A DNA stretch of 64,000 nt, taken from Prostheceraeus crozeri (lineage: Eukaryota; Platyhelminthes; Polycladida; Euryleptidae). The DNA lies in contig CAJQUW010000503.1 of NCBI GenBank assembly GCA_907163375.1, forward strand, positions 248,001-312,000, read 5' to 3'. Under the pieces are notes generated by a model, which was not told the origin of the DNA, did not search any database, and was given only the letters and a program-made list of their open reading frames with translations. The translations under genes and the position numbers were made by a program. Below are positions 23,604 to 64,000 of this stretch, in pieces (position 1 is the first letter of the stretch; every line of letters begins with the position of its first letter).

Positions 23604-24168
23604 ATGAAGGACGAATTTCTCCAATTGCGAAATGATTTGCGTAGGCTTGTTAACCGTATGCTGAGGATTGAAAATTCTGTTAGACATGTTCGAGAAATTC
23701 AAGAATCACAGCAAGAGGAGATTGATGAGCTGCGTCATTTGCTTAATGAAGTAAAGGATTCTTTTAATCTTGAGGGCGTTTTGAGGTAGAGGAACGTGAA
23801 AGACGGAAAAAATCGATGGGTCATTGAAAGAGCGTCAGGAGGTTGACATGAAAAGCATTCAACAAATGTGCGATTATCTTGGACTTGGGCATGTGAAAGC
23901 TGCTACAGTACATCGATTTGGAAAGCTTACTAGAGACAAGGTGCGACCTTTAAAAGGTCGTTTTTAAGACAGCTTCTCGAAGGTAGAATTTTTTCGAAGA
24001 TCTAAAGACTTGAGAAATTCGATCCAGTTCAAAAATGTTTTCGTCTCCAATGACTTTACGAAGCAGCAGCAAGACGAACGATTTCTCCTCCGACAAGAGC
24101 TGAGATGCCAAAAAAGTAGTGGCTTGTAGTATTGTGGTGAGAAAAGCGGCGATCGTAGGACCGACACA
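23604..24168 (+). pseudogene. Decayed LINE ORF1-like gene, target of Polinton 1
   Basis: An intact frame (23604-23789) encodes a coiled-coil segment (heptads between residues about 5 and 55). After frame changes the same gene continues: a segment with 'MCDYLGLG', 'HRFGKL' and 'RPLKG' (about 23870-23965), a stop, then 'VFVSNDFT' and a basic helix (to about 24110). This order, coiled coil then an RRM-like block then a basic C-terminal block, is that of ORF1 proteins of non-LTR retrotransposons and related nucleic-acid chaperones. Polinton 1 is inserted at its 3' end. The sequence past 41705 may be its continuation. Confidence 0.5.
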
Positions 24169-24520
24169 AGTAATGGGCAAAATACCGTTCCAGGACACCA
24201 TAAAATTCAAAAAAATAGTATCTTTAAAAACGACATAAATTCATGAATTTGAACCCTTTTTCAGGTTATTAAGACCTAAATACATGAATTTAGTCCATTC
24301 AAAAAGTACCATTTTTTCAAAAAATGGCATTTTTAAAAACGACATAAATTCATGAATTTGAACCCTTTTTCAGGTTATGAAGACCTAAATTCATAAATTT
24401 GGGCGTTTTTAAAAATACCCAATTTTCAAAATTTTCAAAATCTCAAATTTGAGAATTACAATTTTCACCCTTAAAATCATGACCGTTCCAGGACACCGAA
24501 AATCATAAAAGTTGAGAATT
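24169..24520 (+). repeat. Left terminal inverted repeat of Polinton 1
   Basis: 352 bp matching the reverse complement of 41353-41704 with only two or three differences. It contains the motif CCGTTCCAGGACACC twice (about 24184 and 24482) and an internal duplication of the 'gacataaattcatgaatttgaaccc' segment. The near identity may reflect recent insertion or copying of one end from the other during protein-primed replication. Confidence 0.9.
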
Positions 24521-24592
24521 TCAAATTCATGAATTTTATCCATCTTTCAGGTTTTTAAAATATATCATGCGACTAAAAATATTTCTTTAAAA

Positions 24593-26245: not shown

Positions 26246-26310
26246 TAGCTGAAATATGTTGTTGTTTTTAATTTTTTATAAAAAATGTTTATTTAAAATT
26301 TTAACTAAAA

Positions 26311-27977: not shown

Positions 27978-27979
27978 TA

Positions 27980-28114: not shown

Positions 28115-30286
28115 TTAAAAAGGTGAAGTAGTTATTCCATCAGGTAAAATTTTTCTTTTATCATCAAATGGATCTAATGCCAATTTATGTTCTTCTTTTA
28201 AATACATTTTATGTTTTTTTGAATTAAGTCTATAATTACATTCTGTTTTTATTTCATTATTAAATAATACATTTTTATAATCTTGAAATGTTATTTGATT
28301 AGCCACTGATGCCTTTGAAATTCCTTTTAATGTTTTATGTGTTTTAATATTATTAGTTGTGTTATAGCAATAACATTTAGATTTTAAAAATATAGCTTCT
28401 GTTATGAAATCTTCATTTCCTTCTAATTCATCTTTTACTTTACATAAATCGGAAGGATGAATGATATCTTTTATTTTATTAATTTCTTCATCAAGTGTAG
28501 AATTATACGGTATTATTAATTCTAAGAAAACAGAATCGGTATCTGTAAAGTGTAATTTATAGTTTTTGTCATAAGCAGGTGCTAAATAATCATATATAAA
28601 TCTATACATAAATAGTTTAGCTAATTCTAATATAGTGTTTATCATGTTTTACGCTCATTCGACGTAAATGTACAGCACATAGTTCATCACTAAATCTAGT
28701 AGTTCTTTTATATATAGGTTTCCTTGTTAAATTTTGAAACCTATCTTTATCATAAACTATTTCAATATTTTGTCTATTACGGACATTTTCTAAAGTCTTA
28801 CCATAGAATGCATTATTCATTAATTTGAAGAACACGTTTCCAAAATCATCTTTATTTCTTTTAGCTATTTTACGTTTTTCAATATTGAACTCTATATAAT
28901 CTTTTAACCATCTAGATTTTTGATAAAATAGTTTTCGATGTATTTTGGTGAGAATCATTCCATGTTCTAAATACCAATCTAGCATTCTTCCTTCAACAAC
29001 ATACTTTCCTTTATTGCTTTGTGTTAACATAAGTTTTTTTGTTGGTCTGTATTTCTTAGGAATTAAAGATTTTTGATAATCTGAAAAATCTTCTATATTG
29101 GGAATTTTGTTTTCGGGACAGAAAGGAAAATATTTTGTTTTATCTTTTATTTCATCAGGATATACTAAATCAACTTCATATATATAACCATGATTATAAT
29201 TTCCATCATATGTTTTTTGATAATCAAGAATATTACACCATTCCATCTCACCTGTTGGTAATTCTTGTATCATGGAAGAAGAATATAAGCTATTAAAATC
29301 ATAATATAACAAATAGTTTTCTCTCATGAATTCATCAATTGCATTTTCACGTTCTACTCCTTCTCGTTTCGTTCGAAAAATTTCTAATATTTTTTCTTTT
29401 TCTTCTGGAGATAAAGGTTTCATTATTCCATAATCATCAGGATTTACTTTTTTATTGTAACACTGTACATAACGATTACCTAAAACTGATGAAACTCCAC
29501 CTCTAATTCCAGATTCAAAAAATAATAATTTATCATATGTATTTTCTTTATAATGTTTAAGTTTAACATTTGTATGTTTTAATCCTGCTAACCATGTTAA
29601 ACCTGGTGTAGAATAACAATAACATGGATCTATTCCGTAATATTCTAAACACATATCACGAAAGTTTTCAAAAAGATCAGCAAAGATTAATACATCTATC
29701 TGAAGATATTTCATTGTATAATCATACATTGTTTTACAATTTAACTCTCTCCAATTCTTTTCAGCTTCTGCATAATCTTCTTCAGATAATTGTGATTGTT
29801 TTAATGTTGATTTAAATTTATTTATTGGAGGAAGTTGTTTTTCTTCCATAATTTTATTTTCCCATAACATCTAATGAATAAGGAGTAAAAAATCTAAATG
29901 CATCTAAAATTCTAATACAACCTAATTGCATTGAAAAATATTCTTCTTCTGTTTTACATAGTACATTTATTTGTTGTTGTTGTAATTTTTCAGATGAAAA
30001 TAAATCTTTCATTACTAGATGGAAATCATATTTAGAACCATTGTAGAAATATAAAGGAACAAAGTTATATTTAAATTTATTAGCATTAAGATTACAAGAA
30101 TTATGTGCTGCACCTCTATATAATCCATTTAGATGATCATGATCTTTTACCTTATCAAGATATCTACCTCTGCCATTTTTATAATTTTTTGTAAATTCTT
30201 TTCCACAGTAATAACATTTTGTTTCATTAATAAAATTTAATTTTTCTTTTCTGTTAATGGCATCATTGGAATATTTATTTATTTGT

Positions 30287-30814
30287 ACCAATGAAAAACA
30301 GCACAAAGTGCCAATAACATGTCACATACATCAGTTATAAAAATACACACACGAAAATTATTCAAGAAATTAAAAGTAAAAGTAAGGAGAGATAAAATAC
30401 AAATAAAATACAAAAGGTAACCATCATTATCGGCTACTTTAAAGACTAGAAGAGCGGATGGCTTTTGATATGCAACTTTTGCTGAGACCAATGTCAAAAT
30501 AGTCGATGCGATTTTCATCATTCGCGGCACTCATCACTCGTGGAAAATATGTATTCTTTCTAACAACCAACCGATACGGCTTCATGGAACACAACACTTT
30601 AGCACCCGTATGCCTTGTGCGTTTAGTTGGAACATGCAACGAAAACGAAGAAACAAGATGACACGAATTGATTTTGCCGTGCAAAATTTTGTGGAACATA
30701 ACAGAGTCAGTTATCTTACGTCTTTGTTGCAATGTTGTCAAATTGAACTTGTCACAGAGTTCCACATAACGATCGGTATCATACACAGTATGATTTTGAA
30801 AGGACAAAAATAAA
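30287..30814 (-). mobile_element. 5'-truncated LINE (CR1/L2/Jockey-like) inserted in polymerase gene
   Basis: Between polymerase fragments lies about 530 bp of unrelated, less AT-rich sequence. Its minus strand encodes the typical C-terminal end of a LINE reverse transcriptase: 'LQQRRKITDSVMFHKILHG', then 'VPTKRTRHTG', 'TYFPRVMSAAND' and a short tail, followed by an apparent 3' UTR. The sequence TATTTGT occurs at both borders (30280-30286 and 30815-30821), a possible 7-bp target duplication. The family is inferred from the motif order. Confidence 0.65.
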
Positions 30815-34499: not shown

Positions 34500-34546
34500 T
34501 TTTTTTATTTTTATTAGAAAAAATTTTATTTTTTTATTGTTAAAAA

Positions 34547-35366: not shown

Positions 35367-35456
35367 TCGACGAAGTCTTGGGTTTCTAACCTATCGGAGC
35401 GAAGCTCCTCGAGGCTTTAGCCGATCGGACCAAAGGTCCTCAGGTTACTAACCAAT
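35366..35456 (+). repeat. Cluster of GC-rich palindromes, family B
   Basis: Includes TCGGAGCGAAGCTCC, GGCTTTAGCC and CGGACCAAAGGTCC, each a small hairpin, directly after the fibre stop. The same set is found inverted at 37588-37672 and, in several copies, at 61668-61822. Confidence 0.8.
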
Positions 35457-35504
35457 CCTAAACGTAAATCTTAGCGCAAATATTAACGTAAATATTTTTT
35501 TTCA

Positions 35505-35526
35505 AAAGTCAAATTTAATCCTAAAA
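35505..35526 (+). promoter_or_regulatory. Shared upstream motif AAGTCAAATT
   Basis: The word AAAGTCAAATT stands 13-18 bp before the ATG of the pVI-like gene here, before the same gene in element 2 (about 59822) and before the major capsid gene (about 36237). The genes are separately spaced, so each needs its own signal. This may be a virus-type late promoter element. Confidence 0.4.
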
Positions 35527-36093
35527 ATGCCTACAATTTATAAACACAATCTTAAACATTTTGCTTCAAATCAAAGAATTGCTCATGAACCACGTATGAA
35601 TCCTGTTTATCATTATGATAATAGAGAAACAGTCGGAACACAAAAGTTTCTAGGCACCGCAGGTGCCGTTCACACGGAAGGAGCTGGCATCTTCTCTGGT
35701 ATTGGAAGTATCGTTAACTTAATTAAAAATAATAAAGATTTGATTACATCTGCTGCAAAAGGAGCAGCTGCTATAGGTAGTACAGCTAGTGCAATATCAA
35801 ATGCTGTCAAGTCTCAAAACGAATTAAAACAACTAGAAGCTATTCGTAAACTTAGGAATGATCCCGAAGAACTAAAAAATTTAAAAAAACTTTCAGAGGA
35901 AACAAAAAATAAAATTCCTAACATAGCTGTTGGGGAAACCTTGAGGAGCGGAGCTCCGTCTGATAGTAAACATAAGAAGAAATCAGGCGTAGCCATAAAA
36001 CGTTCAATTGAAGAAATAAGAGGAAATGGCGTGAGTAGCAACCTTCGGTCTAACCAGCAAAGCTGTAGCGGAGCTGGTCTAGCAAAATTCTAA
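35527..36093 (+). CDS. pVI-like small virion protein with palindrome-encoded inserts, element 1
   Basis: 188 residues, against 144 in element 2 (59847-60281). The conserved core is a glycine-rich amphipathic segment 'EGAGIFSGIGSIVNLI' followed by an Ala/Gly helix and a charged coil. Together these suggest an internal capsid protein able to act on membranes, like adenovirus pVI. Near the C terminus IRGNG fits the adenain-type cleavage consensus (I/L/M)xGx|G. The extra 44 residues relative to element 2 coincide with palindromes (for example ggcaccgcaggtgcc at about 35653, gagcggagctc at about 35945, accagc...gctggt near the end). The gene has therefore been lengthened in frame by palindromic inserts. 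Confidence 0.6.
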   Translation: MPTIYKHNLKHFASNQRIAHEPRMNPVYHYDNRETVGTQKFLGTAGAVHTEGAGIFSGIGSIVNLIKNNKDLITSAAKGAAAIGSTASAISNAVKSQNELKQLEAIRKLRNDPEELKNLKKLSEETKNKIPNIAVGETLRSGAPSDSKHKKKSGVAIKRSIEEIRGNGVSSNLRSNQQSCSGAGLAKF

Positions 36094-36097
36094 AATT

Positions 36098-36215
36098 ATG
36101 TTTTTTATTAAAATTTTTTTAGTAAAATTTTTTTAGTAAAATTTTTTTAGTAAAATTTTTTTAGCAAAAATTTTTTAGTAAAATTATTTTAGTAAAATTA
36201 TTTTAGCAGAATTTT
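36098..36215 (+). repeat. Short tandem repeats before the capsid gene
   Basis: About six copies of a roughly 17-bp unit 'agtaaaattttttt' between the pVI-like and major capsid genes. A simple expansion. Element 2 has a different tandem repeat ('caaaattctagtag', three copies) at the same place. Confidence 0.7.
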
Positions 36216-36260
36216 TTCTGTGTGTGAGAAAAACAAAAAGTCAAATTATTTTTTATAAAA

Positions 36261-37595
36261 ATGTCTTCGCTTATCGAAAATAAATTTAGATTAGACGATC
36301 CTCCGTTCGTCAGTTGCAATAAAAAAAAGAGTGACTATATAAGAATTGCTATGAATCCCGGATCTTCCAGTAGAGTAAATACTGGAGGTGATTTAATTTT
36401 TGAAGTTGATAATCAGCAGAGTTATATATATCTACCTGATTCATTTTTACACTGTGAATATTCTTTGTATAGTGATGCCAATTTTACAACACCATTACCA
36501 GAAACCGATAATATTGCACTAGAGAATAATTTCTTTCCAAGATTATTTACACAAATGCGTTTAGATGTTGCAACTCAAAATATAGAAACAATAAGTGATT
36601 CTCCAGGTGTAATTGATACAATGCTTAGATTTATAACAATTGGTGAAAATAATAAAAAGTATGAAATCGAAGGTTGGTTTCCTGATACTAATGATGGTAT
36701 AATTGTTGATGATTTAACTCACGCTGGAACAGATGCAGCAGGAATTGCGAAAGATGTAGAAAATATTGCAAAACAATTAAATAAAACAAACAATAGTGTA
36801 TATAAAGAAAGACGTGAATTTAACAAGAAAAGTAAACAGACAGTAAATTGGTCATTGTCTCCATTATTCGGTTATTTAGATTATGATAAAATATCATATC
36901 AATTAAAATTTAAATTAATAATTCGTCGTACAGCAAATAATGAATTAATCTTTTTTGGTAAGACTGGAAAAAAAGCATATTTAAAAATTGATAGACTTGA
37001 ATGGTGGATTAAGCATATTACTCCTAGTTTAGAGGTTGAAACAGCTATTGCAAAAAGATTAAATACTAACAAACCAATTCCAGTAAATTTTCTAAAGCGT
37101 ACTGCTAGTTCAGTAACTTTTTCCGAACAAAGATTTAACTGGCATTTTACTAGAACTGCGAATACTCCAAGATATTTATTACTAACATTTCAAAGAAATA
37201 ATTCTCCAAGTTTTGATAAGAACAACAATATTTTTCATATTAATACAATTCGAAGTTTACAAGTTTCATTAAATCAAACCCGATATCCAATTGATCTATT
37301 AAGATTCGATGATACCAATAATCAATTTATGGAAGGATATGATTGTTATCGAAATCTTTGTACAGAATTTGGAGTTGAACCACAATTAACTCCTGGAGAT
37401 TGGAGACATTTATATCCAATTTTCTGTTTCGATTTAAGTGCACAATCTGAAGATATTATTAAAAATGGTTGTGATGTAACAATTAATATTGAAAAGAAAG
37501 ATTCCACAACTTCATTGATGGCTTATGGTTTATTGCTAGAAGATGTAAAATATTCTATTGAAATTCTTAATGGAAAGATGGCTAGGATAGGCTAA
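36261..37595 (+). CDS. Major capsid protein (double jelly roll), element 1
   Basis: 444 residues, intact, the same length as in element 2 (60342-61676). Beta-rich throughout. The segments 'GGDLIFEVDNQQSYIYLPDSFL', 'LENNFFPRLFTQMRLDVATQ' and 'WWIKHITPSLEVETAIAKRL', and near the end 'INTIRSLQVSLNQTRYPI' then 'NQFMEGYDCYRNLC', follow the strand and helix order of Polinton/adintovirus hexon-like capsid proteins. It would trimerise into capsomers. The stop codon lies within the palindromic repeat GGCTAAAGCC (37590-37599), so the last residues are encoded by that repeat in both elements. Confidence 0.8.
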   Translation: MSSLIENKFRLDDPPFVSCNKKKSDYIRIAMNPGSSSRVNTGGDLIFEVDNQQSYIYLPDSFLHCEYSLYSDANFTTPLPETDNIALENNFFPRLFTQMRLDVATQNIETISDSPGVIDTMLRFITIGENNKKYEIEGWFPDTNDGIIVDDLTHAGTDAAGIAKDVENIAKQLNKTNNSVYKERREFNKKSKQTVNWSLSPLFGYLDYDKISYQLKFKLIIRRTANNELIFFGKTGKKAYLKIDRLEWWIKHITPSLEVETAIAKRLNTNKPIPVNFLKRTASSVTFSEQRFNWHFTRTANTPRYLLLTFQRNNSPSFDKNNNIFHINTIRSLQVSLNQTRYPIDLLRFDDTNNQFMEGYDCYRNLCTEFGVEPQLTPGDWRHLYPIFCFDLSAQSEDIIKNGCDVTINIEKKDSTTSLMAYGLLLEDVKYSIEILNGKMARIG

Positions 37596-37672
37596 AGCCA
37601 GAGGAGCTTTGCTCCTATCGGTTAGTAACCTGAGGACCTTTGGTCCGATAGGCTAAAGCCCAAGACTTCGTC
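37588..37672 (+). repeat. Cluster of GC-rich palindromes, family B
   Basis: GGCTAAAGCC, GAGGAGCTTTGCTCC, GGACCTTTGGTCC and 'gactt cgtcg' in series, overlapping the capsid stop codon. It is an inverted counterpart of 35366-35456. Confidence 0.8.
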
Positions 37673-37689
37673 GATTAATTAATTTTTTT

Positions 37690-37858
37690 TCATAACTAGA
37701 ATAGATTAAAATTTTTTTAGTAATTTGTAATAAAATTTTTTGTAACTAGAATAGATTAAAAATTCTAAGCTTAAGAATTTTTCATAACTAGAATAGATTA
37801 AAATTTTTCGTAACTTAAAAATTTTTCATAACTAGAATAGATTTAAAATTCCTAACTT
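37690..37858 (+). repeat. AT-rich tandem repeat before pX-like gene
   Basis: Four imperfect copies of 'cataactagaatagattaaaatt' with A/T runs. No coding content. Element 2 lacks it. Confidence 0.7.
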
Positions 37859-37876
37859 AAAATTTTTTTATTAAAA

Positions 37877-38361
37877 ATGTCGCAAGCGAAAAGTAATAAT
37901 AATAAAACTGTTGAATTAAAATTACGTAACATTGTTGACAAAAATACACCTAAAACTATTACGATTAACAAAAAAAAGTATTACATAAGTAAACCAATGA
38001 TAGAGAATATTCAATTACAAGAAGAAAAGAATGGCGGGATTCTCCCATTAATTCCACTAATAATAGGTGGCATAGCAGCTGCAGGAAGTGTTGCAGGTGG
38101 GACAGCTGGTATTGTCCAAGCAGTAAATAAAAATAAATCAGAGAAGGCAGCATTAGAAGAACAAAAACGACATAATAGAGAGTTAGAGAAAGTTGCTAGG
38201 GGTGAAGGAGTAGTAGATAATTTTATTAGTAAATTAAAATTAGTTGATGAAGGAAAACGAGTTCTCAAAAAATATTCTCCACAATGTTGATGAGTTAATT
38301 GAAATTAAAGAAACTAAAGAATGTTCTGGAATATATCTAAGTCCTAGTATGATAAGATAAA
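37877..38361 (+). pseudogene. pX-like small virion protein, late frameshift, element 1
   Basis: Matches 61842-62315 until the last third. Then an indel in an A run (near 38268) puts the C-terminal 25 codons, ending near 38361, out of frame and gives an early stop at 38290. The hallmark is 'NGGILPLIPLIIGGIAAAGSVAG', a Gly/Ala-rich hydrophobic helix, followed by a charged coil. Comparable small proteins occur beside the capsid genes of adintoviruses and are likened to adenovirus core protein X. IIGG|I fits the adenain cleavage consensus. Confidence 0.6.
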
Positions 38362-38382
38362 ACATTTATTTTATCTTTTAAA

Positions 38383-39729
38383 ATGAATTCTACAAATTCC
38401 GAAAATTTAATTAAATTAAAAATTGTTAATTTAGATTTATTGAATTATCTATTAAACAAAAATAAAAACTCAAATTGTAAAATTTATGAAGGTAACGACG
38501 ACAAACAAAGTTTGGCTACTATCTACGGTGGTGACATACAAAAAACAATAGAAAACTTTCCTGGTTTTATTTGGAGTAAATATTCGAAAGAAAAACATCT
38601 TCCTGGTCATTCATATACTGGTCCAGGAACTCGATTAGATATAAGACTAGATGAGAATGATAATCCGAAACCAGGTGAAGAACCAATAAATAGAGTAGAT
38701 GCCGCAGCTTACAATCATGATTTAGCTTATCGAAATCATGATCTAAGTTCTCGACATGCAGCTGATAAGAAGATGATTCAAGAATTAGATAGTATTCAAA
38801 ATCCTACATTTAGAGAAAAAATTGAAAGAATGTTTGTTAAGAAAGCTTTACAAGCTAAAATATTATTCGGACAGGGTTTAAATGAAACGACAGCAAAGCT
38901 GTCTGAGAGCAACGCTCGAACCTACGCGTCTGAAATTCATAGGGAATACAGAAGGCCTAAATATTTATTGAAAGTAAAAGTATTTAATAAAGATGATATT
39001 TGGAGTGCTGATCTTATTCATATGCCGAATGAAAAAGATTATAAATACGCATTGACCGTTATAGATTTATATACACGATACGCTTGGGTAAAGCCTTTAA
39101 AAAACAAAAGTGGTCTGTCAGTTAAATATGCGTTTGAAGAAATCTTTAAAGAAAGTAAGAGAAAGCCAAAAAAATTGTTTGTTGATAAAGGGTCGGAATT
39201 TTATAACCGAAACGTTCAGCCAATATTTGAAACTGTTTATTCAACTGAAAATGCAGGGAAGGCTGTAGTAATAGAGCGTTTCAATAGATCATTGAAAAAT
39301 AAAATTTTTAAGAAATTTACTGAGCAAAGAAATCAGAAATGGTTGAAGATATTGCCAGGAATTGTAGAACAGTACAATAATAAAGTTCAGTCAGGTATTG
39401 AAGAAACCCCAAAGAATGCTTCTGACGACCTTGATTTAATACGAAAGAAAATATTCGAGAATAATTATTCGAACGAAAATAATAATTTGAATGAGAGTAA
39501 TCCGAATCTACAGAAACGTAAGCCGAAATTTAAAATTGGAGATAGAGTTAGAATATTTAAATATAAGAATAAATTTGAAAAAGCCTTCGTCGGATACTGG
39601 ACTAAAGAAATATTTGAAGTTTGTAAAATAAACCAAACTTATCCGATTACTTATGAAATCAAAGATTTAGATAATGAAGATATCAGAGGCCGTTTTTATC
39701 AAAATGAATTACAACGAACTGATTTTTAA
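38383..39729 (+). CDS. Phospholipase A2-integrase fusion, element 1
   Basis: 448 residues, intact. N-terminal domain (about 70-150): a parvovirus-VP1-type phospholipase A2 with calcium-loop GPG (80-82), a catalytic-type HD pair (H112-D113) and a following AD (127-128). C-terminal domain (about 200-440): a retroviral-type integrase core with D210, D268 and E298, ending in an SH3-like 'FKIGDRVRIFK' region. The usual N-terminal HHCC finger is not seen. Between them LFGQG (161-165) fits the adenain cleavage consensus, and a palindrome at 38889-38930 encodes the linker. PLA2 would help a particle leave an endosome; integrase would insert the element. The ATG has the A-rich leader typical of these elements. 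Confidence 0.85.
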   Translation: MNSTNSENLIKLKIVNLDLLNYLLNKNKNSNCKIYEGNDDKQSLATIYGGDIQKTIENFPGFIWSKYSKEKHLPGHSYTGPGTRLDIRLDENDNPKPGEEPINRVDAAAYNHDLAYRNHDLSSRHAADKKMIQELDSIQNPTFREKIERMFVKKALQAKILFGQGLNETTAKLSESNARTYASEIHREYRRPKYLLKVKVFNKDDIWSADLIHMPNEKDYKYALTVIDLYTRYAWVKPLKNKSGLSVKYAFEEIFKESKRKPKKLFVDKGSEFYNRNVQPIFETVYSTENAGKAVVIERFNRSLKNKIFKKFTEQRNQKWLKILPGIVEQYNNKVQSGIEETPKNASDDLDLIRKKIFENNYSNENNNLNESNPNLQKRKPKFKIGDRVRIFKYKNKFEKAFVGYWTKEIFEVCKINQTYPITYEIKDLDNEDIRGRFYQNELQRTDF

Positions 39730-39780
39730 TTATCATTATCATTATTATTGGAACTAACGTTTTTCGGGAATTAAATTCCC

Positions 39781-40239
39781 TTATTCAATTCCCTTATTCA
39801 ATTCTAACATAATATCTAGAAATGGTACTCCTTCCTGTAATTTAAAGAAAACATAAAGACATAATTGACCACAATAAGTAGTTCCCGGTTTTTGAATTTG
39901 AAATGTATTATAAATTCCATTGCCAAGTAATTTTTTGACTTCGTTTGTCGGTGGAAGTCCATAAGAGTCGAACCAATAGTTCTCAGCCTCTGGGCGGTCG
40001 AAATAGTAATTATCTCGGTTTTTATTAAAGATACCTGCAGACCAATGTACGCCTTTTTGGTCTGAAGTGTGAAGATTCGTAATGAAATTTACAGTTGGCT
40101 TATTTTTGATCAATTGTAATTCGTCTCTCATTAGAACATGAAAATTCTTTATTCCTAATTCATTTGCGATTTTCTTTAGGTCGAAATTTGTCGTGGTTTG
40201 CGTTCCATATAATTTCAAAAACTCATTTATGTTGCTCAT
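39781..40239 (-). CDS. Adenain-like cysteine protease, element 1
   Basis: 152 residues from ATG 40239. Catalytic residues are recognisable: His in GVHWSA, the acidic residue in WFDSYG, and the Gln/Cys box in TTYCGQLCL. These are the features of the C5/ULP-type maturation protease of Polintons, adintoviruses and adenoviruses. It faces the integrase gene tail to tail, with about 50 bp between them. Its likely targets are the (I/L/M)xGx|G sites in the pVI-like protein and the PLA2-integrase fusion. Compared with element 2 it has a short insertion (NKNRD, RPEAENYW) before the FDSYG motif. Confidence 0.85.
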   Translation of the reverse strand: MSNINEFLKLYGTQTTTNFDLKKIANELGIKNFHVLMRDELQLIKNKPTVNFITNLHTSDQKGVHWSAGIFNKNRDNYYFDRPEAENYWFDSYGLPPTNEVKKLLGNGIYNTFQIQKPGTTYCGQLCLYVFFKLQEGVPFLDIMLELNKGIE

Positions 40240-40280
40240 TTTATAATTAAAAAAATTTCTTATAGGGATCCCTAGAAGAC

Positions 40281-40400
40281 AGAAGGGAGGGGGTATTGAT
40301 TTCAAACTGTTCTCTAATGATGACTTTCCTTACTACTTAGTCAGAAGGGGGGTATTGATTTAAAACTGTTCTCTAATGATGACTTTCCTTACTACTTATT
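40281..40400. repeat. Tandem duplication of a roughly 60-bp unit
   Basis: Two near-identical copies of 'agaagggagggggtattgat...ttccttactactta', upstream of the protease. This could duplicate a promoter region of the minus-strand gene. Confidence 0.75.
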
Positions 40401-41194
40401 CGATTTTGAAATGATTTAATTTAATCTAAATTAGAACGTTACATTGTTACATTTTATTTTTATGAACTCTCATTAAGAGGATATTGTTTGTTTTATCTGT
40501 ATTAAGACAATGGCAACATCTGTTACCACATTTCTGAAACCGCATGATTGTTTTAGGGGATCATACGGGTTGTGCATTCATAACATGGCGTTAATAGCAT
40601 AAAAGCAATCTATTAATTCATTCTCTGCTTTGAGGGAATATTCTGTTGTTATAGCAATCATTCAATACAATATCGCAGTATCGATAGTCGAGACCAATTG
40701 TCGAGCCAAAACCGCAACTTTTCTGGTTTTGGTCGGTAGTTTGGTTTTGGATCTGGCTCGCGTTATGGCCGATGAAATGATTTACAATGCGGTGCAATTT
40801 CCTCATTGTCATTCAAGTACATTTAATCATACGCGTCATGTCATACCCGTATGTTGTCAAGCAAACTTCATACACCTACAATGCCGCTTTGCTTAGATCA
40901 CCATTCATAATTTTCACTTGCTATTTAAACACGCACAATTCATAAAACGTGACACATTACAATCTTAGTTTAAATCTTATCATCACAATGGTTGGATCTA
41001 CTGAAAGATCTGTTCGATTGGAGACAAAGCGGAGAAGAATTCAGAAGTTAACAAGGGAAATCATACATCTGCAAGCACAAAGTAAAATATTCTTACACTT
41101 GGATATGAGAAGAATTTTTGAATACATCGGAGACCCGCACATCAATTATAGGACATGATTTAAGAGAGAGAAAAAATTGTAATTCTCAAATTTG
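40401..41194. other. Subterminal region of Polinton 1, small ORF of doubtful status
   Basis: No recognised gene. A 56-codon frame at 40988-41158 (plus) encodes a basic, helix-prone peptide and follows an AT-rich stretch. It may be a small gene or chance. Base composition is less AT-rich than in the core genes. Confidence 0.4.
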
Positions 41195-41352
41195 AAATTC
41201 TCAACTTTTATGATTTTCGGTGTCCTGGAACGGTCATGATTTTAAGGGTGAAATGTCATAATCACAAATGTGAGATTCTTAACTTTTATGATTTTTCGGT
41301 GTCCTGGAACGGTCATGATTTAAGCGAGAAAATTGTAATTCACAAATTTTGA
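41195..41352. repeat. Extra tandem copies of the inner TIR unit
   Basis: The right end carries two additional, slightly diverged copies of the innermost TIR unit (ending 'ggtgtcctggaacggtcatgatt'), at about 41195-41250 and 41262-41325, that the left end lacks. Confidence 0.75.
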
Positions 41353-41704
41353 GATTCTTAACTTTTCTGATTTTCGGTGTCCTGGAACGGTCATGATTTT
41401 AAGGGTGAAAATTGTAATTCTCAAATTTGAGATTTTGAAAAATTTGAAAATTGGGTATTTTTAAAAACGCCCAAATTTATGAATTTAGGTCTTCATAACC
41501 TGAAAAAGGGTTCAAATTCATGAATTTATGTCGTTTTTAAAAATGCCATTTTTTGAAAAAATGGTACTTTTTGAATGGACTAAATTCATGTATTTAGGTC
41601 TTAATAACCTGAAAAAGGGTTCAAATTCATGAATTTATGTCGTTTTTAAAGATACTATTTTTTTGAATTTTATGGTGTCCTGGAACGGTATTTTGCCCAT
41701 TACT
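41353..41704 (-). repeat. Right terminal inverted repeat of Polinton 1
   Basis: Inverted copy of 24169-24520, ending in GCCCATTACT and followed by the target duplicate gacaca. The last complete CCGTTCCAGGACACC word (minus strand) ends about 15 bp before the terminus. Confidence 0.9.
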
Positions 41705-42160
41705 GACACATGTCGCTCTCCAGCCCCTGTGCATCCGTAGTCCGTGCTCAAAACGAAGGAATACTTGACGGAAGATGTATTAACGCCAAATATTTCGGTC
41801 TGAGGCCTTCGTCAGTGGTGACATAATGAAAAGCACAACCGATTACACCGATAGAACACGTAAGATCATCTCACAATGTACAGAAAGACCGGCAACATAG
41901 TCAAATCATGATGACATAGAAATGGCAGTGACATCGATTGACAATAGAAATGTGGAAGCTAGCCTTTACAATGACGTCATGGTACCAGAACTTGATCAGA
42001 AGCAATAGTGAATAATAGTCAGGCAGAAAATCATAATAATTAAAAAAGGGGAGTGCATAAAAATAATTAGTGACGTAGACCCGACAAAGCAAAAAAGGAT
42101 GACAGAATATGAAATTAGAATAACAATTTGTTTAGACGGTGGAGATCTAATCAGTCAATA

Positions 42161-42617: not shown

Positions 42618-42711
42618 AGACCGCGTGGTATGAAAGAACGAAGGGACTCAATACACTTTGACTCCGCGTGGTATGAAAGAACGAAGGGACTCAATACACT
42701 TTGACTCCTTA
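42618..42711. repeat. Tandem duplication, 47-bp unit
   Basis: 'gcgtggtatgaaagaacgaa' and the following bases to 'ctttgactcc' occur twice in a row, duplicating the C-terminal end of the GIY-YIG domain coding region. Confidence 0.85.
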
Positions 42712-44163
42712 CATACTCTTGCACTTTTAGAAAAACAACGATCGATTGCAAAAAATGCAAGATCAGACACAGAATAAACATCAGAAAAATGTGGCACCAA
42801 ACATGAATTAACATTGCGATCACGAATGTCTCTCAAATGCTCTTCGACTCGTTGACGTAAAGGGCTATTGGTTTGGCCGACATAGTGGACATAACAGCGT
42901 TGGCATTCAATTACATATATACAATGAGTGGCGGCAAATGATAAATTAAATAAAATGGGATACAGTTCACTGGGTGAGACGCCTTTAAAGAAATTAAGTG
43001 GCTTAGCGAAATTACATGCGTGGCATCGACCCCCTTCACATCGGGAAAAACCAGAGGACCAGCGTAAGTTAAAGCCAGTTAGGTGCAAGACCTTCTTTTT
43101 AGCATTTCTCAGTACAGTTCAAGAAACACTCTGCTCACGCCAACAAGGAAACACCATCTCCGCAGTATTTTTGAAGTCTGTTCAGTAGACGAGCGGGTCG
43201 CCCATCTCAAGATTTGAGAATAAATTGTATCGCGAAACACATGAGGTGCATGGTGGGAGTCACTGGGCAAGATGGTGTACGAAGCCGAGTCCTTGAAAGC
43301 AATGCGATGCGAAAGCTGCGTCGAATTCGAGGACTTGTATATGAGGTCTAAATAGTGAATCGAGGTGTCGTGAAAATTCAAGTCGACTTGAATGCGTTGA
43401 TCGATGGAAAATGTCTAAGAGAGTCCTCTCCATGGGGCCAAATAGCGAATATACCGTCCTGATGACGTACCCATAGAAAGGGTTTCAGCACAGCACTCGA
43501 AAGAGTTCTCTCCTCCCAAACACCCTCATAGATGTTGGCGAAAGAACCACCGTAGGGCTTACCCATGGCTACACCTGACACTTGTAGCCAACGTTGGTCA
43601 CAGTAGGTGTAATCATTTCGCTGAGTCTTAGTCTTAGTAAATCCAACAGAAGCACATTAGGACGATTACTTTTAATTCTTCAAATGCTGTTGCCACTCTG
43701 CGGATACATTCATCGATTGGGATATATGTATATAGAGAGTGGACATCGAATGTACACAGAAGACTGTCACCCGTTGTCTGAGTTTGGCGAAGGACGGCAA
43801 TTAATTGTTGGGAGTCGCGTAAAAGCTTGGCAAGCGTTTGGCTAGAAGAAATAAAAAGTACTCGATAAATTTCCCAACATTAACACTGACAGACCCAACA
43901 TCGGCCACAATAAGTCTTCCAGGAGGCGTGTCAAGGGCAGGCCAAACTTGCTTGTGAACTTTTGGAAGAATGTAAAATCGACGATCACTTGGGTCGACAG
44001 GTGATAGAAGAAAACGAAGTTCCTTGCGGTTGATAGCTCCAGAGGAATAAATAGAGTTAAGAATATCCTCGAAAACATAAGAAGAGTCCGTTGGGGGTTG
44101 CAACAAACCTCTGTAAAAAGCCTCGTTTGAGAGTTGAGCATTACATTAGTGTTCATAGGAAAC

Positions 44164-52849: not shown

Positions 52850-53478
52850 AGAGTTATAATTCCTCTTCCCAGTCTTCACTATCAGCGTATTCAATTATAT
52901 CACATTCTTTTTTTATTCGTTGAAATATTTCATCTTGAACATCTTCTCCGTTATAAGGTAGCATAATACCATTTGCATCAGGTGCTTGACGTTTAAGAAT
53001 ATTTATTTTACCAGTGAATCTTTTTTCTTCAGTGTTATTATTTTTATCAGGAATACTAATACCAGTTTCTAAAGATCTTTTCCATGGTTTATTAACAATT
53101 GTTGTCAATGTTTCGCCATGGTATAATTGAATGAAATCTTCTACTTTTACTTTAGTTTTTGTATAACCCTTAAATGTTTTCTTTTCACTAAGTCTCCCTT
53201 GTTCATCTACAGTAATACAATATTTTATTTTGGGAGCGATAAACAATCCATATATAATTCCCCCATTACCATAATCATTTTCCCCTTGACATAATTCCCC
53301 GCCAACATATCCAGCGGCATCTAATTTATTGAAGAGTTCATTGGAAATGTATATGGAATCAGTATCTGTGTAATGTATGTGTTTTTCTTTAAAACCATTA
53401 ATTTCTAAAATAAAGTTGTTCATGATTCGTCTAGAGTGAGCAAGAATAAAAGAACCTAAACGTGATGGCATGAATGAT

Positions 53479-53511
53479 GTCGCAGCGTAGCTGCTCAGGC
53501 CTTTGGCCGTC
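53479..53511 (-). repeat. Family C palindrome in frame inside polymerase gene
   Basis: On the minus strand GACGGCCAAAGGCC followed by TGAGCAGCTACGCTGCGAC: two small hairpins, GGCCAAAGGCC and GCAGCTACGCTGC. Encodes 'TAKGLSSYAAT'. The linker of the PLA2-integrase gene carries a related sequence (38889-38930, 62781-62822) encoding 'TAKLSESNARTYAS'. Confidence 0.65.
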
Positions 53512-54284
53512 TTTTCAGTGTCTGTAATATTAGCTTTAAGAAATTCATCATCTTCCATTTCTACTTTCACTAAGAATTGTTCATCATTTACTTTTTCAAA
53601 ATCTTTTACTTCTTGAGTGAAATTTTTTCTCAATGTATTCTCATTCCATAAATGATATTTAGTGGTTATGTCTTTTTGTACGGTTTTTCCATATAGTGAA
53701 TTCATTAATAATTTAATTAACTCATCGCCTACAGTGTTTCCTTCTATTTTATATTTTTTTCTTAAATTGAAGAGCTTTTCAATGTATTTGCGAAATGGTG
53801 AAATGTGATAATTTTCTTCATAAATTATACCATCTGTAATAGATAATATTTTCCCGCCACATCTAACAATTTCCTGTATGTCTACAGAAGTGAATACATC
53901 ATAACACATTCCATTCCTAAACCTTATTATTTCTTGATTGCAATTGTTTTCATTCTTTACCTTATCTTTCGCAGGAACTGGTTGAAAAAACATCTCATCA
54001 GGATAATGAAACACAACTGTGAATATTCCAGTTTTAGGACGAAATGATTGAGTGTTAAATTGATATAATACTGCTTGTTCTTCTTCTTGTCTAAATTTTC
54101 TAGCGGATTCGGCTTTAGGGTATTCTGAATGTTCGTCATACATAGCTGATGGATATAAAGATGTTGCATCAAAATCCATTAAGAATTCATTTCGTTGGTC
54201 GAGTAGTTTATGTTCAATTTCTTTACAAAGAGCATTCTTGTCTTGCAACTGATTATACTGCTTCATTAAATCTATTAAATTATT

Positions 54285-54321
54285 ACCTGGGGGCAAAACC
54301 CCCTCAGCGTAGCACCCAGGT
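54285..54321 (-). repeat. Palindromic insert in polymerase gene near the stop
   Basis: ACCTGGG ... CCCAGGT with an inner GGGGGC/aaaa/CCCCC stem. It is read in frame as 'YLPGCYAEGVLPPGN' about 50 bp downstream of the premature TAG, in the linker between the conserved KGGR-type motif and polymerase motif A. Confidence 0.7.
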
Positions 54322-56364
54322 AAATACCTCCGTAATATTGGTAGCAAGATGTTACAAAATGGAGATTCCTAATGTCTTATATTTGCTGAAATTCTTCCAC
54401 CTTTAACAGATTTTCTAATATAGTTTCTAGTCCATAAATCAGTATGTGAGTGTATAAGTGTATTGTCATCTTGTACGTTCTTCATCCAACCGTTAAAGGT
54501 TAAAGCAGAAGATGTTAAATTAGTAGTTATATCTTCACCAATTAATTCTTGCATTACTTGATTATACTTGTAGATACAAAATGCTAATGAAAGAACATCG
54601 TTAATTAAATACGGTTTCCATTCATGTTCTTTTTTCTGATAATTGTCATGTGTAATTTCGACAATTTCATAATTTAATTTACACATATTGGTAGGGGTTT
54701 TAAAATTCTCGCACCATTTGGAAAGACTTGTTTTCACGTGTTGATAGCTACATTTCATTACAATAGTTTGTAAAGGTTTGCTTGGTTTTATGTTACGTTT
54801 TGTAGAGACACCTAGTTGCTTAGATCTAGAGGAACGTTGGATATACTTACTAACACTTTCAGTTGTATAAGGATTTTGTAAAGAAGCAGTGAGTATTCCT
54901 CTTGATGTTTTAAGCGGTGGTTTATTTAATTTAAAATTAGATTTGAGTGGAAAATATGCATCGAATCCTGATGAATTATGTGATATTAAAGTTACTTTCG
55001 AATGATTAAAAGAACCAAGGTTTTTGAAAAATTGATGTATCGGACATACGTCCTCTGGGTTTCCCCCGAACGGACATTCATCTTGTTTCCTAATAAAGAT
55101 TTGCACACAATGTTGAAGTTTGTTAAGTTCTGCTCCAGTTAAGTTGTTGTATTCACTTATCTGTTTCTTAAGTTCTTTAATTTCCGCTGGATCTTGACTC
55201 TTTTTTAATTTCATCATGTCACATAATAAACGTTTGTCCACTTCTGACAATCTCCGTTTCGGTAAGCAACACATGAATTTATTGAAATTGATAGCGCCTA
55301 AAGCATAAGGAATAGGATGAGCTGTTGGACAGCGAGGATCTGGATAAGTTTCGAGATCCCATATATATGTTGAACCATAGTCAATTGGTTTCTTTGTTAT
55401 GGTCTTATACGGAAGTGTTGTTAGATTTTCATCAGTAACAGTTTTATATATTGGTTTGAAATTATTTTTAATTTCTCTAATAGCTTCTCTTTTGTAGAAC
55501 TTATTTATTAAACAGTAGTGTCCTATTGATGAACCTTCGTAAGAATAATTGTAATAAACGTAATTATGCGACGTTGTAATACCTCTAGGATTTAAATGAC
55601 GATTAGTACGGCTGAAATACTGAACACATTCTCCAAAGTATTTATTGAATTGAGAAAACCTGCAGTTTGTCATTACTCCTGTTCTAGATGTAGCTTTCTC
55701 TTTATATAAAAAGTCATTAAACATCTCGAACATAATTTTAGCTTGTTCTTGATTGAACCCACGTAAGGCGTTATAACATTTTATGAAGCAGAAATCTTCA
55801 GAAGGAATGTAACAATATTGACCGATGTATTCTTTGATTCTATATTTCATATTAATACCAGCGCCTCTATGTGATCTTTGTACTAGTTTCATACCAAAAT
55901 CTTTGTATTTGATACTACCTGTAAAAACCCATTCATTGGTATCTGATTTGTGATCTAGATTACGAAGCCATGTTTCAAATGAATTTTTATTATAAAATGT
56001 AGCATAAAAGTTTGGTATTGTGGTTCCATCTTCTTTGTTTATTACACCCAATAAATTTAAAACTTTCCCATTGCGTAACAGCTCACGTATATCATTTACT
56101 ACATTAGTAAAAAGTTCATTTTCATACGTGATGACGATCGGATTAAACAGATTCAATAGATCATCGCCAAGTCTATCATCAGAGAATATGTCACTAATTG
56201 GTGTGGCTGATGTTTCCTTTGTTCTACGGTTCTGTTTTTTAATATTACGTCTAATACTACGCCTAGTACGTTTCTGTTTTTTAATACGTCTACTACGTTT
56301 AATTTGTGCATCAAATTCATCAATTTGTTTCTTGATGAATTCGTCAATCGCGTGTTCTGGTCCT

Positions 56365-56742
56365 TTAACATTTTCCATTATTTACGTTTTTTAATAAAAA
56401 AGTTATGTTTTTCACGTATACAGGAATATTTAGTTGTGCTAATGTTTCTAAATCATAAACAGTCAAATGTTCTTTATTAACCAACCACCATAAATTAGTA
56501 TACGCTAAAAATACTCTGAAACTTCGCAGACAAAGGGGGAAGTCTTTTGTTTTCGCGTAACTTCTTATACCGTGTTTTATTTTATAGTCTTTCACGAATT
56601 GCATATATTGACGATGGTAATGAAATTTAACTTCATGTTTCGGGGTGAGAGGGTTTGTAGGATGACGATAATTTTTTAAAACTGGTACGTATTCTATTTT
56701 ATAGGCCTTTGTCCTCTGAGTTTCACTCACCTCATTAATCAT
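56365..56742 (-). CDS. Small unknown protein between ATPase and polymerase (125 aa), element 2
   Basis: Not recognised. Start taken at ATG 56742; a longer frame upstream has only a non-ATG start. It overlaps the polymerase start by 14 bp and follows the membrane ATPase by about 15 bp, so the three genes are tightly packed in one direction. It is basic and aromatic-rich in the middle ('HYHRQYMQFVKDYKIKHG'), with a C-terminal hydrophobic segment (about 80-120). The position suggests a replication or terminal-protein role, but the sequence does not show it. Confidence 0.55.
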   Translation of the reverse strand: MINEVSETQRTKAYKIEYVPVLKNYRHPTNPLTPKHEVKFHYHRQYMQFVKDYKIKHGIRSYAKTKDFPLCLRSFRVFLAYTNLWWLVNKEHLTVYDLETLAQLNIPVYVKNITFLLKNVNNGKC

Positions 56743-60341: not shown

Positions 60342-61676
60342 ATGGCAACTCTGATTGAAAGCAAATTTAGATTAGACGATCCCCCGTTCGTTAGTTACAA
60401 TCAAAAAAAGAATGACTATATAAGAATTGCTATGAACCCCGGTTCTTCAGGTAGAGTGAATACTGGAGGTGATTTAATTTTTGAAGTTGACAATCAACAA
60501 AGTTATTTATATTTACCCGATTCATTTTTACACTGTGAATATTCTCTATATTCAGATGCTGATTTTACAACACCATTACCTGCTACGGATAATATTACAT
60601 TAGAAAACAATTTCTTCCCAAGATTATTCACACAAATGCGTTTAGATGTTGCAACACAAAATATAGAAACCATAAGTGATTCACCTGGTATTATTGATTC
60701 AATGCTTCGATTTGTTACAATAGGTGAAAATACTAAAATGCATGAAATCGAAGGTTGGTTTCCTGATAACCATACCGGCATACTTAAAGATGATTTAACT
60801 CACACTGGAACAGATGCAGCAGGAATTGCGAAAGATATAGAAAACATAGTGAAACAGTTAAATAGTACACAAAATAGCTCATATCAGAAAAGACGTAATT
60901 TTAATAATAAAAGTAAACAAACTGTTGATTGGTCATTGTCTCCATTATTCGGTTATTTGGATTACACTAAAATATCATGTCAATTGAAATTCAAACTCAT
61001 AGTTCATCGTACTTTAAATAATGAAGCAATATTTTATCGAAAGGCTGGGAAGAAAGCATACCTAAGAATTGATAGACTTGAATGGTGGGTAAAACATATT
61101 ACTCCTAGTTTAGAGGTTGAAACAGCTATTGCGAAAAGATTAAATACGAACAAACCAATTCCAGTAAGTTTTTTGAAGCGTACTGCGAGCTCTGTCACTT
61201 TTACTGAACAAAGATTTAACTGGCATTTCACAAGGACATCAAATACTCCAAGATATTTTTTACTCACTTTTCAAAAGAATGAAACACCTAGTTTTGATAA
61301 GAACAATAGTCTTTTCCATATTAATTCAATTCGAAGTTTACAAATTTCATTAAATCAAACACGTTATCCTATTGATCCATTGAGATTTGATAACACCAAT
61401 AATCAGTTTATGGAAGGATATGACGCTTATAGAAATTTGTGTCGAGAATTTGGAGTAGAAGCACAATTAACTCCTGTAGATTTGAAGAATTTATATCCTG
61501 TTTTATGTTTCGATTTAAGTGCAAAATCGGAAGATATTATTAAGAATGGTTGTGATGTGGCAATTAATATTGAAAAAACAAATTCCACAACCTCATTGAT
61601 GGCTTATGGTTTATTGCTAGAAGACGCCGAATATTCTATTGAAATTCTTAATGGAAAGATGGTTAGGATCGGCTAA
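60342..61676 (+). CDS. Major capsid protein (double jelly roll), element 2
   Basis: 444 residues, intact, collinear with 36261-37595 without gaps and roughly 80-85% identical by eye. Conserved landmarks: 'FRLDDPPFVSYN' at the N terminus, 'NNFFPRLFTQMRLDVATQ', 'WWVKHITPSLEVETAIAKRL', 'SIRSLQISLNQTRYPI' and 'NNQFMEGYDAYRNLC'. It would form the capsid facets. The stop is again inside a GGCTAAAGCC palindrome. Full length and no in-frame stops indicate selection until recently. Confidence 0.8.
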   Translation: MATLIESKFRLDDPPFVSYNQKKNDYIRIAMNPGSSGRVNTGGDLIFEVDNQQSYLYLPDSFLHCEYSLYSDADFTTPLPATDNITLENNFFPRLFTQMRLDVATQNIETISDSPGIIDSMLRFVTIGENTKMHEIEGWFPDNHTGILKDDLTHTGTDAAGIAKDIENIVKQLNSTQNSSYQKRRNFNNKSKQTVDWSLSPLFGYLDYTKISCQLKFKLIVHRTLNNEAIFYRKAGKKAYLRIDRLEWWVKHITPSLEVETAIAKRLNTNKPIPVSFLKRTASSVTFTEQRFNWHFTRTSNTPRYFLLTFQKNETPSFDKNNSLFHINSIRSLQISLNQTRYPIDPLRFDNTNNQFMEGYDAYRNLCREFGVEAQLTPVDLKNLYPVLCFDLSAKSEDIIKNGCDVAINIEKTNSTTSLMAYGLLLEDAEYSIEILNGKMVRIG

Positions 61677-61841: not shown

Positions 61842-62315
61842 ATGGCGCAAGTGAATAATAAAACGGTTGAATTAAAACTACGTAACATCATTGACAAAAA
61901 TACCCCTAAAACTATTACGATTGACAAAAAGAAGTATTACATAAGTAAACCAATGATAGAGAATATCAAATTACAAGAAGAAAAGAATGGAGGGATTCTC
62001 CCATTAATACCACTAATCATAGGTGGCATAGCAGCGGCAGGAAGTGTTGCAGGTGGGACGGCTGGTATTGTCCAGGCAGTAAATAAAAATAAATCAGAGA
62101 AGGCAGCATTAGAAGAACAAAAACGCCGTAATAGGGAGTTAGAGAAAGCTGCTAGAGGTGAGGGAATAGTAGACAATTTTATTAGTAAATTAAATTTAGT
62201 TGATGAAGGGAAACGAGTTCTTAAAAATGTTTTACACAATATTGATGATTTAATTGAAATAAAAGAAACAAAAGATGGATCTGGCATATATCTAAATCCT
62301 AGTATGGTGCGATAA
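61842..62315 (+). CDS. pX-like small virion protein, intact, element 2
   Basis: 157 residues. Basic N-terminal part (1-50) and 'NGGILPLIPLIIGGIAAAGSVAG' (about 49-71), a Gly/Ala hydrophobic helix with an IIGG|I adenain-type site. A charged helix (75-105) follows, then the C-terminal 'DGSGIYLNPSMVR'. This combination is found in small proteins beside capsid genes in adintovirus-like elements, compared by others with adenovirus pX. Element 1 has the same gene with a late frameshift. Confidence 0.65.
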   Translation: MAQVNNKTVELKLRNIIDKNTPKTITIDKKKYYISKPMIENIKLQEEKNGGILPLIPLIIGGIAAAGSVAGGTAGIVQAVNKNKSEKAALEEQKRRNRELEKAARGEGIVDNFISKLNLVDEGKRVLKNVLHNIDDLIEIKETKDGSGIYLNPSMVR

Positions 62316-62370
62316 GATTTTATCTTTAAAAATCAATTTGAATAACTTAAGAATAACAAATCTAGATCTA

Positions 62371-63603
62371 ATGGATTATCTCTTAAAAGTACATAGAACC
62401 TCAAATTGTCACCACAGCGGAGGCGACATACAAAAAGCATTAGAAAACTTTCCTGGTTTTATTTGGAGTAAATATTCGAAGGAGAAACATTTACCTGGGC
62501 ATAATTTTACTGGCCCCGGCACAAGATTAGATTTAAGATTAAACGATGATAACACACCTAGAGAAAATAGTAAACCAATAAATAGAGTAGACGCCGCCGC
62601 TTATAAACATGATTTAGCTTATCGAAATCATGACCTAAGTTTTCGACATGAAGCAGATAAGAAAATGATTCAAGAATTAGATAGTATTCAGAATCCTTCC
62701 TCTAGAGAAAGAATTGAAAGAATGTTTGTTAAGAAAGCTTTACAAGCTAAAATATTATTCGGACAGGGTTTAAATGAAACGACAGCAAAGCTGTCTGAGA
62801 GCAACGCTCGAACCTACGCGTCCGAAATTCACAAGGAATACAGAAAGCCGAAATATCTATTGAAGGTAAAAGTATTTAATAAAGATGATATTTGGAGTGC
62901 AGATCTAATTAATATGCCTAATGAAAGAGGGTTTAAGTACGCATTGACCGTTATAGATTTATATACACGATATGCTTGGGCAAAGCCTTTAAAAAACAAA
63001 AGTGGTCTGTCAGTTAAATATGCGCTTGAAGAAATCTTTAAAGAAAGTTTTAGAAAGCCAAAAAAGCTATTCGTTGATAAGGGGTCGGAATTTTATAACC
63101 GAAACGTTCAGCCACTATTTGAAACTGTTTATTCAACTGAAAATGCAGGGAAGGCTGTAGTAATAGAGCGTTTCAATAGATCATTGAAAAATAAAATTTT
63201 TAAGAAATTTACTGAGCAAAGAAATCAGAAATGGTTGAAGATATTGCCAGGAATTGTAGAACAGTACAATAATAAAGTTCATTCAGGTATTGAAGAAACC
63301 CCAAAGAATGCGTCTGACGATCCTGATTTGATACGAAAGAAAATATTCGAAAATAATTATTCGAATGAGAGTAATCCGAATTTACAGAACCGTAAGCCGA
63401 AATTTAAAATTGGGGATAGAGTGCGAATATTCAAGTATAAGAATAAATTTGAAAAAGGTTTTGTTGGATACTGGACTAAGGAGATATTTGAAGTTTGTAA
63501 AATAAACCAAACTTATCCGATTACTTATGAAATTAAAGATTTAGATAATGAGGATATCAGAGGCCGATTTTATGGAAACGACTTACAGAAAACAGAGCTT
63601 TAA
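62371..63603 (+). CDS. Phospholipase A2-integrase fusion, element 2 (start codon altered)
   Basis: Collinear with 38383-39729. The frame extends up to 62338, but the position of the element 1 ATG is not an ATG here; the first ATG is at 62371. Counting from 62338: PLA2 calcium loop GPG (59-61), HD pair (91-92), AD (106-107); cleavage-like LFGQ|G (140-144); palindrome-encoded linker (62781-62822); integrase D189, D247, E277 and C-terminal SH3-like 'FKIGDRVRIFK'. The spacing from second D to E is 29 residues, shorter than the usual 33-35. Long tracts of the integrase part are nearly identical to element 1 in DNA. Confidence 0.85.
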   Translation: MDYLLKVHRTSNCHHSGGDIQKALENFPGFIWSKYSKEKHLPGHNFTGPGTRLDLRLNDDNTPRENSKPINRVDAAAYKHDLAYRNHDLSFRHEADKKMIQELDSIQNPSSRERIERMFVKKALQAKILFGQGLNETTAKLSESNARTYASEIHKEYRKPKYLLKVKVFNKDDIWSADLINMPNERGFKYALTVIDLYTRYAWAKPLKNKSGLSVKYALEEIFKESFRKPKKLFVDKGSEFYNRNVQPLFETVYSTENAGKAVVIERFNRSLKNKIFKKFTEQRNQKWLKILPGIVEQYNNKVHSGIEETPKNASDDPDLIRKKIFENNYSNESNPNLQNRKPKFKIGDRVRIFKYKNKFEKGFVGYWTKEIFEVCKINQTYPITYEIKDLDNEDIRGRFYGNDLQKTEL

Positions 63604-63614: not shown

Positions 63615-64000
63615 TTATAGATTGTTTAACTCTAACATTATATCTAGAAATGGTACTCCTTTTTGTAATTTGTACAAAACGAATAAACATAATTGTCCAC
63701 AATAGGTAGTGCCTAGTGTTTGAATTTGAAACGTATTGTATGTTCCCGTTCCAAGTAATTCTTTTACTTCATTTGTAGGGGGCAAACCGTATGAATCAAA
63801 ATAATAGTTCTGCTGATGATTTTTAACGCCTGCTGACCAATGTACCCCTTTTTGGACTGAAGTGTGAAGATTTGTTATGAAATTTACAGTTGGCTTATTT
63901 TTGATCAATTGTAATTCGTCTCTCATTAGGACATGAAAATTCTTTATTCCTAATCGATCAGCGATCTTATTTAAATCGAAATTTGACGTGGCTTGTTTGC
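63615..64000 (-). CDS. Adenain-like cysteine protease, 5' end beyond the window, element 2
   Basis: The frame is open to the window edge, so the start lies outside. Catalytic features: GVHWSAG (His), YFDSYGLPP (acidic residue) and TTYCGQLCLFV (Gln and Cys). It lacks the small insert seen in element 1 before FDSYG. Tail to tail with the integrase gene, as in element 1. Expected to cleave virion precursors, including perhaps the PLA2-integrase fusion. Confidence 0.85.
   Translation of the reverse strand, partial: KQATSNFDLNKIADRLGIKNFHVLMRDELQLIKNKPTVNFITNLHTSVQKGVHWSAGVKNHQQNYYFDSYGLPPTNEVKELLGTGTYNTFQIQTLGTTYCGQLCLFVLYKLQKGVPFLDIMLELNNL

Follow-up and report, generated by a model that had tools for sequence, protein, structure and literature searches.

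The accounts of Polintons available to us in part (PMC5803895, PMC4642659) already place phospholipase A2 (PLA2) domains in these elements. In the available text of PMC5803895, a Spodoptera Maverick/Polinton carries a parvovirus-type PLA2 alongside an integrase, a protease, PolB and an ATPase, but this PLA2 is the N-terminal part of a 'CAP' protein whose ORF is separate from that of INT, and INT itself has a chromodomain. The corresponding passages of PMC4642659 report that some Polintons have gained a PLA2-type lipase related to the parvovirus PLA2, for which a role in entry was proposed, and do not mention a fusion to integrase; a legend in PMC3671162 names the PLA2 domain of the parvovirus capsid protein. 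The initial annotation of the locus described here had likewise treated the two domains as known from separate proteins, which agrees with the Maverick paper as far as its available text goes. Against these sources, the present locus is a variant on the known PLA2-carrying Polintons, in which PLA2 and integrase form one reading frame.

The window, that is, the whole stretch of DNA analysed (64,000 nt of Prostheceraeus crozeri, contig CAJQUW010000503.1, positions 248,001-312,000, forward strand), contains one complete Polinton-like element (element 1, 24169-41704) and one truncated element (element 2), whose fusion copies we call E1 and E2, respectively. The features of both are collected in Table 1. 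Among the hallmarks of Polintons/Mavericks, an rve integrase is present (PF00665 above cut-off, DDE complete), a double-jelly-roll capsid protein is encoded by both elements, and element 1 has terminal inverted repeats and a 6-bp target-site duplication, the right end of element 2 lying beyond the window. Polymerase and ATPase frames are disrupted at 28115-34577 and 52448-54371, with the fusion frame intact in both elements. Two pieces of the shared ATPase-like gene (27603-27974 and 52024-52470) gave no Pfam match above cut-off, and the poxvirus A32-like ATPase gene of element 2 has no counterpart among the element 1 proteins scanned. The two elements have flanking gene blocks in common and differ in their polymerase modules (27973-34542 versus 52791-58936), between which blastn found no match; the PLA2-integrase gene remains linked across this module exchange. 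A frame between the elements (42648-43088) encodes a GIY-YIG domain (PF01541 1.5e-5) and perhaps belongs to another retroelement.

Table 1. Features of the two Polinton-like elements, in window coordinates
Feature	Element	Position	Strand	Remarks
Left terminal inverted repeat	1	24169..24525	+	357 bp
Right terminal inverted repeat	1	41348..41704	-	357 bp, 99% complementary to left
Target-site duplication GACACA, left	1	24163..24168	+	6 bp, exact
Target-site duplication GACACA, right	1	41705..41710	+	6 bp, exact
ATPase-like gene common to both elements	1 / 2	27239-27973 / 52063-52791 (wider limits 52024-52795)
Type B DNA polymerase	1	28115..30306	-	PF03175 2.4e-13; broken into several frames
Type B DNA polymerase	2	52854..56378	-	PF03175 3e-23 and 9.8e-13; different type, stop splits frame
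Poxvirus A32-like ATPase gene	2	56757-58025		Polymerase-side block; above Pfam cut-off
Double-jelly-roll capsid protein	1	36261..37595	+	PF21738 2.4e-18
Double-jelly-roll capsid protein	2	60342..61676	+	PF21738 6.5e-18
Small core-protein-like gene	1	37877..38290	+	Upstream of fusion; weak Adeno_PX similarity, below cut-off
Small core-protein-like gene	2	61842..62315	+	Below cut-off
PLA2-integrase fusion ORF, copy 1 (E1)	1	38383..39729	+	One frame, 448 aa, ATG start
PLA2-integrase fusion ORF, copy 2 (E2)	2	62338..63603	+	One frame, 421 aa from TTG; first ATG is codon 12, 62371
PLA2 module, E1 residues 49-165	1	38527..38877	+	PF08398 match 70-150; GPG 80-82; HD 112-113
Candidate adenain-type site LFGQ|G, E1 residues 161-165	1	38863..38877	+
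Candidate site LFGQ|G, E2 residues 140-144	2	62755..62769	+
Variable-length linker after LFGQG, E1 residues 166-181	1	38878..38925	+
rve integrase core, E1	1	38992..39276	+	D210, D268, E298
Adenain/Ulp1-like protease gene (putative)	1	39781..40305	-	Convergent with fusion; HW, FDSYG, GQLC motifs by eye
Adenain-like protease gene (putative)	2	63615..63998	-	Runs off window; motifs in alignment

The one-frame fusion of PLA2 and integrase is real. As the initial annotation had proposed, both elements encode a PLA2 with GPG and HD motifs and a D,D,E integrase in a single frame, with all motifs complete and each domain above its Pfam cut-off: PF08398 (Phospholip_A2_4) scores 35.9 bits in E1 and 35.2 bits in E2 (cut-off 23.9), and PF00665 (rve) scores 40.1 and 41.9 bits (cut-off 32.6). 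The features of a parvovirus-type PLA2, namely a calcium-loop GPG, a catalytic HD and a domain above the PF08398 cut-off, are all found in this predicted phospholipase. The last two residues of the integrase triad are separated by 29 residues; the canonical retroviral D,E spacing is 35. The window contains two occurrences of a DNA pattern for the PLA2, and 100 shuffles contain none. Between E1 and E2, dN and dS are 0.11 and 0.48 for the PLA2 and 0.035 and 0.27 for the integrase. Structure models of the fusion were poor (mean pLDDT 40.2 and 56.5) and unusable for judging the junction.

The fusion recurs throughout the source genome (2.05 Gb, 14165 contigs). Our search scored 94 of 24,796 first-look candidates and listed 95 matches, of which 93 are full-length fusions at separate places of the assembly. 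Ninety full-length copies were examined, the window copy included; the other three, and the two pieces at contig C2020, were left out. The DDE triad is present in all 90 copies, HD in 87, and GPG and LFGQG in 85 each; since most copies of the family are closely related, the 85 occurrences of LFGQG are not 85 independent observations. A small core-like gene lies upstream and a protease-like gene convergent downstream at every one of the 30 best loci. A broader search for the PF08398 family gave 6835 candidates in the source genome, of which 150 were scored, all above cut-off; none of the 14 control genomes gave a match. Twenty-two of the scored matches were picked by hand for inspection, twelve of them for their short frames. 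In 21 an integrase lies directly downstream on the same strand, and the remaining one, L153, has no integrase within the stretch inspected; L153 aside, none of the 22 is a PLA2 gene standing alone by design.

A pattern scan of prokaryote assemblies returned five further loci (L045-L049), all in metagenome-assembled genomes, which we infer to be foreign DNA in the bins. In L049 (7163 bp, bin labelled Muriicola), the only fusion copy found in its bin, PLA2 and integrase again share one frame (912-2117), with both domains above the Pfam cut-off and 57% identity to the window fusion (integrase 57%, PLA2 55%). A protease-like gene, a core-like gene and a polymerase follow 3' of this fusion on the same strand, whereas the protease-like gene in the window is convergent. 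The L049 polymerase matches the element 1 region (tblastn to 2e-101); tblastn against the element 2 region gave no match at 1e-3, and blastp related it weakly to a single polymerase piece of element 2 (22%, E 4e-4). Judged by its sequence, L049 is a distant second lineage with the same fusion layout.

The remaining four loci, L045-L048, are ordinary Polinton integrases, 30-34% identical to the window copy and like it in the rve core and the C-terminal region that follows. All four combine rve with a chromodomain, and none has a PLA2 match; three visibly have a GSYGGV/GSLGGV-type N-terminal domain, and the frame of L047 starts inside this domain. The PLA2 of the fusion therefore occupies the place of the N-terminal domain; E1, E2 and L049 also lack the chromodomain, giving no Pfam match to one. 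Scans of viral contigs found no Polinton relative. A PLA2 pattern scan yielded 44 loci, mostly unrelated frames, of which four match the window PLA2 (tblastn E < 1e-5) and resemble phages. L014, L023, L037 and L044 look by eye like phage contigs, L044 having portal- and capsid-like genes. Beside a small protein they encode a PLA2-like protein that carries the motifs GPGTEL and D.AA..HD.AY and is similar to the window PLA2 (tblastn 8e-8 to 1e-6). In tblastn against phage and plasmid sequences (8 and 97 records), it was mainly the integrase part that matched among the 8 and 20 matches listed, and the annotated ones among these were mostly IS3-type transposases.

The PLA2 module ends in a motif resembling a protease site. 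According to the available text of PMC4246237, the adenovirus protease recognizes (M/I/L)XGG|X or (M/I/L)XGX|G; P4 can likewise be Gln or Asn, and one substrate is reported to depart further. LFGQ|G satisfies the second form. From 103 junction sequences, 8 without a pattern match were dropped; LFGQ is present in 92 of the 95 read (the window copy counts double, under the names E1 and L050), and its Leu, Phe and Gly codons change synonymously. The linker after LFGQG ranges from 8 to 30 residues in source-genome copies and comprises 4 residues in L049. Insertions in this linker were seen in L112, L139, L140, L142, L147, L148, L160 and L161, several of them containing units like YASEMSNDPSR. The constancy of LFGQG beside a linker of variable length favours constraint on the motif. 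The junction of L049 reads KLGM|G, which keeps both glycines and, with Lys at P4, falls outside the stated consensus. The initial annotation had noted that LFGQ|G fits the adenain consensus, had proposed that a precursor could be separated there during maturation, and had looked to other species for the fusion with a conserved consensus. The motif does fit the rule and is conserved in the source genome, and the fusion does recur in a distant lineage, but there without the consensus site; separation during maturation is thus plausible and LFGQ|G a candidate only. A protease next door had also been claimed: a protease-like gene does adjoin each window fusion frame, on the opposite strand. Its identity as adenain-like is putative, resting on motifs, with no Pfam match above cut-off for either window gene and a Peptidase_C5 match under cut-off for the L049 homologue (E 0.068).

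We also counted strict cleavage motifs. The E2 fusion has one site versus 0.28 expected (P 0.25, unremarkable) and the E1 fusion two versus 0.20 (P 0.018); of the 90 family copies, E1 alone has its N-terminal strict site, IYGG|D. We rejected an additional N-terminal cleavage site, at the GG preceding DIQK: the strict motif is matched in E1 (IYGG|D) and in L049 (LHGG|K), whereas E2 has HSGG|D, most copies carry Thr at P4 (TYGGD in 82/90), and L145 and L149 have lost the GG. The non-polymerase proteins tested contain 7 strict sites versus 2.19 expected by shuffles in element 1 (11 proteins, P 0.007) and 5 versus 1.65 in element 2 (8 proteins, P 0.027); the polymerase-region proteins of element 2 contain 0 versus 1.17 (P 0.31). 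This excess over shuffles is weak evidence, because several sites fall within Gly-rich hydrophobic segments, the elements are related to each other, and proteins of the polymerase region do not stand clearly apart.

On the sequence evidence, we lean towards cleavage at the junction in this lineage. In the model we propose, a Polinton-like virus lineage would make a parvovirus-type PLA2 and a retrovirus-type integrase as one polypeptide, which would be packaged in the capsid as a precursor; during maturation, the neighbouring adenain-like protease would cut this lineage's precursor at LFGQ|G. Parvovirus VP1 and retroviral Gag-Pol suggest, as analogues, that the PLA2 may then breach the endosomal membrane and the integrase travel with the genome to the nucleus. 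That the fusion is a packaged precursor which the neighbouring protease probably cuts, we regard as an even prospect.

The main rival, close behind the precursor reading, is that the fusion is never cut, the PLA2 being the N-terminal module of the integrase in a bifunctional protein and LFGQG only closing the PLA2 fold ahead of a flexible linker. We take this to be a serious possibility, though short of an even one. The conserved GxG may simply terminate the PLA2 fold: L049, with its four-residue linker, lacks a strict site and yet keeps both GxG and the fusion, and the varying linker length in the source genome, in some copies through repeat-like units, also suits an uncut protein. What an uncut protein accounts for less readily is that LFGQG is kept within the genome while the adjacent linker varies, and that a protease-like gene adjoins the fusion in 30/30 loci examined.

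The integrase might instead also be made alone, from an internal start in the PLA2 tail (Met150 in E1). This methionine is common to E1 and E2 (Met129 in the latter), and no further in-frame ATG comes before the first catalytic Asp; its position is, however, occupied by Lys in L144 and Val in L049, and in E1 it lies behind seven out-of-frame ATGs. Because Met150 is not kept and no in-frame ATG follows it before the first catalytic Asp of E1, internal initiation is unlikely. More improbable again is a decay product, in which a stop between two genes was lost in an ancestor of the copies. Other genes are indeed broken in both window elements, but such an origin is already contradicted by the second lineage at 57% identity and by the state of the family itself. 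No internal stop is found in 57 of the 90 copies, and the 41 stops in the remaining copies (N-terminus 5, PLA2 7, linker 2, integrase 27) are spread as expected from segment length (chi-square P 0.40), with no clustering at the junction. The 22 intact copies among the 30 best give dN/dS values of 0.19 for the PLA2, 0.09 for the linker and 0.14 for the integrase; both the PLA2 and the integrase domain are under purifying selection. Four short-frame copies carry frameshifts near the junction, and these breaks are not the same in any two of them, as expected of decay. The initial annotation had considered that relatives in which a stop separates the domains and each domain has its own start would mark the fusion as shared decay of two copies; no relative of this kind is present in the material examined. 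An assembly or annotation artefact is scarcely credible: misassembly can fuse genes, but the 93 full-length matches listed stand at separate places of the assembly and the same fusion occurs in an independent one.

A PLA2-integrase fusion is not described in the available text of the Polinton and virus literature searched, including PMC11071296, PMC4061559, PMC11071308, PMC12220804, PMC10120064 and PMC8097293; most subscription papers and the protein databases lay outside this search, so a database record of the fusion may already exist. Polinton particles were unobserved at the time of PMC8097293, according to its available text. With a stable fusion of PLA2 and integrase and a candidate maturation site that is conserved, this lineage offers a direct test of the integrase as a virion protein and of the coupling of entry to integration. 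To our knowledge, it is not settled how Polintons bring their integrase into a new cell.

In Foldseek searches with a low-confidence model, the integrase part appears similar to the integrases of a MELD virus (A0A8S5L5R7, 327 aa) and of mavirus (A0A1L4BK86, 358 aa), with alignments of 272-274 columns; the names of these proteins do not include PLA2. The best PDB match, by sequence and by low-confidence model, is the foamy virus integrase. Retroviral integrase is made within the Gag-Pol precursor and released by the viral protease. In the present fusion the partner of the integrase is instead a PLA2, and cleavage is a candidate only. We suggest, with more reserve than for either account of the junction, that a DNA virus lineage may follow a retrovirus-like logic, in which the integrase would be packaged through a precursor with an entry phospholipase and the capsid protease would free both within the particle and thereby couple integration to escape from the endosome.
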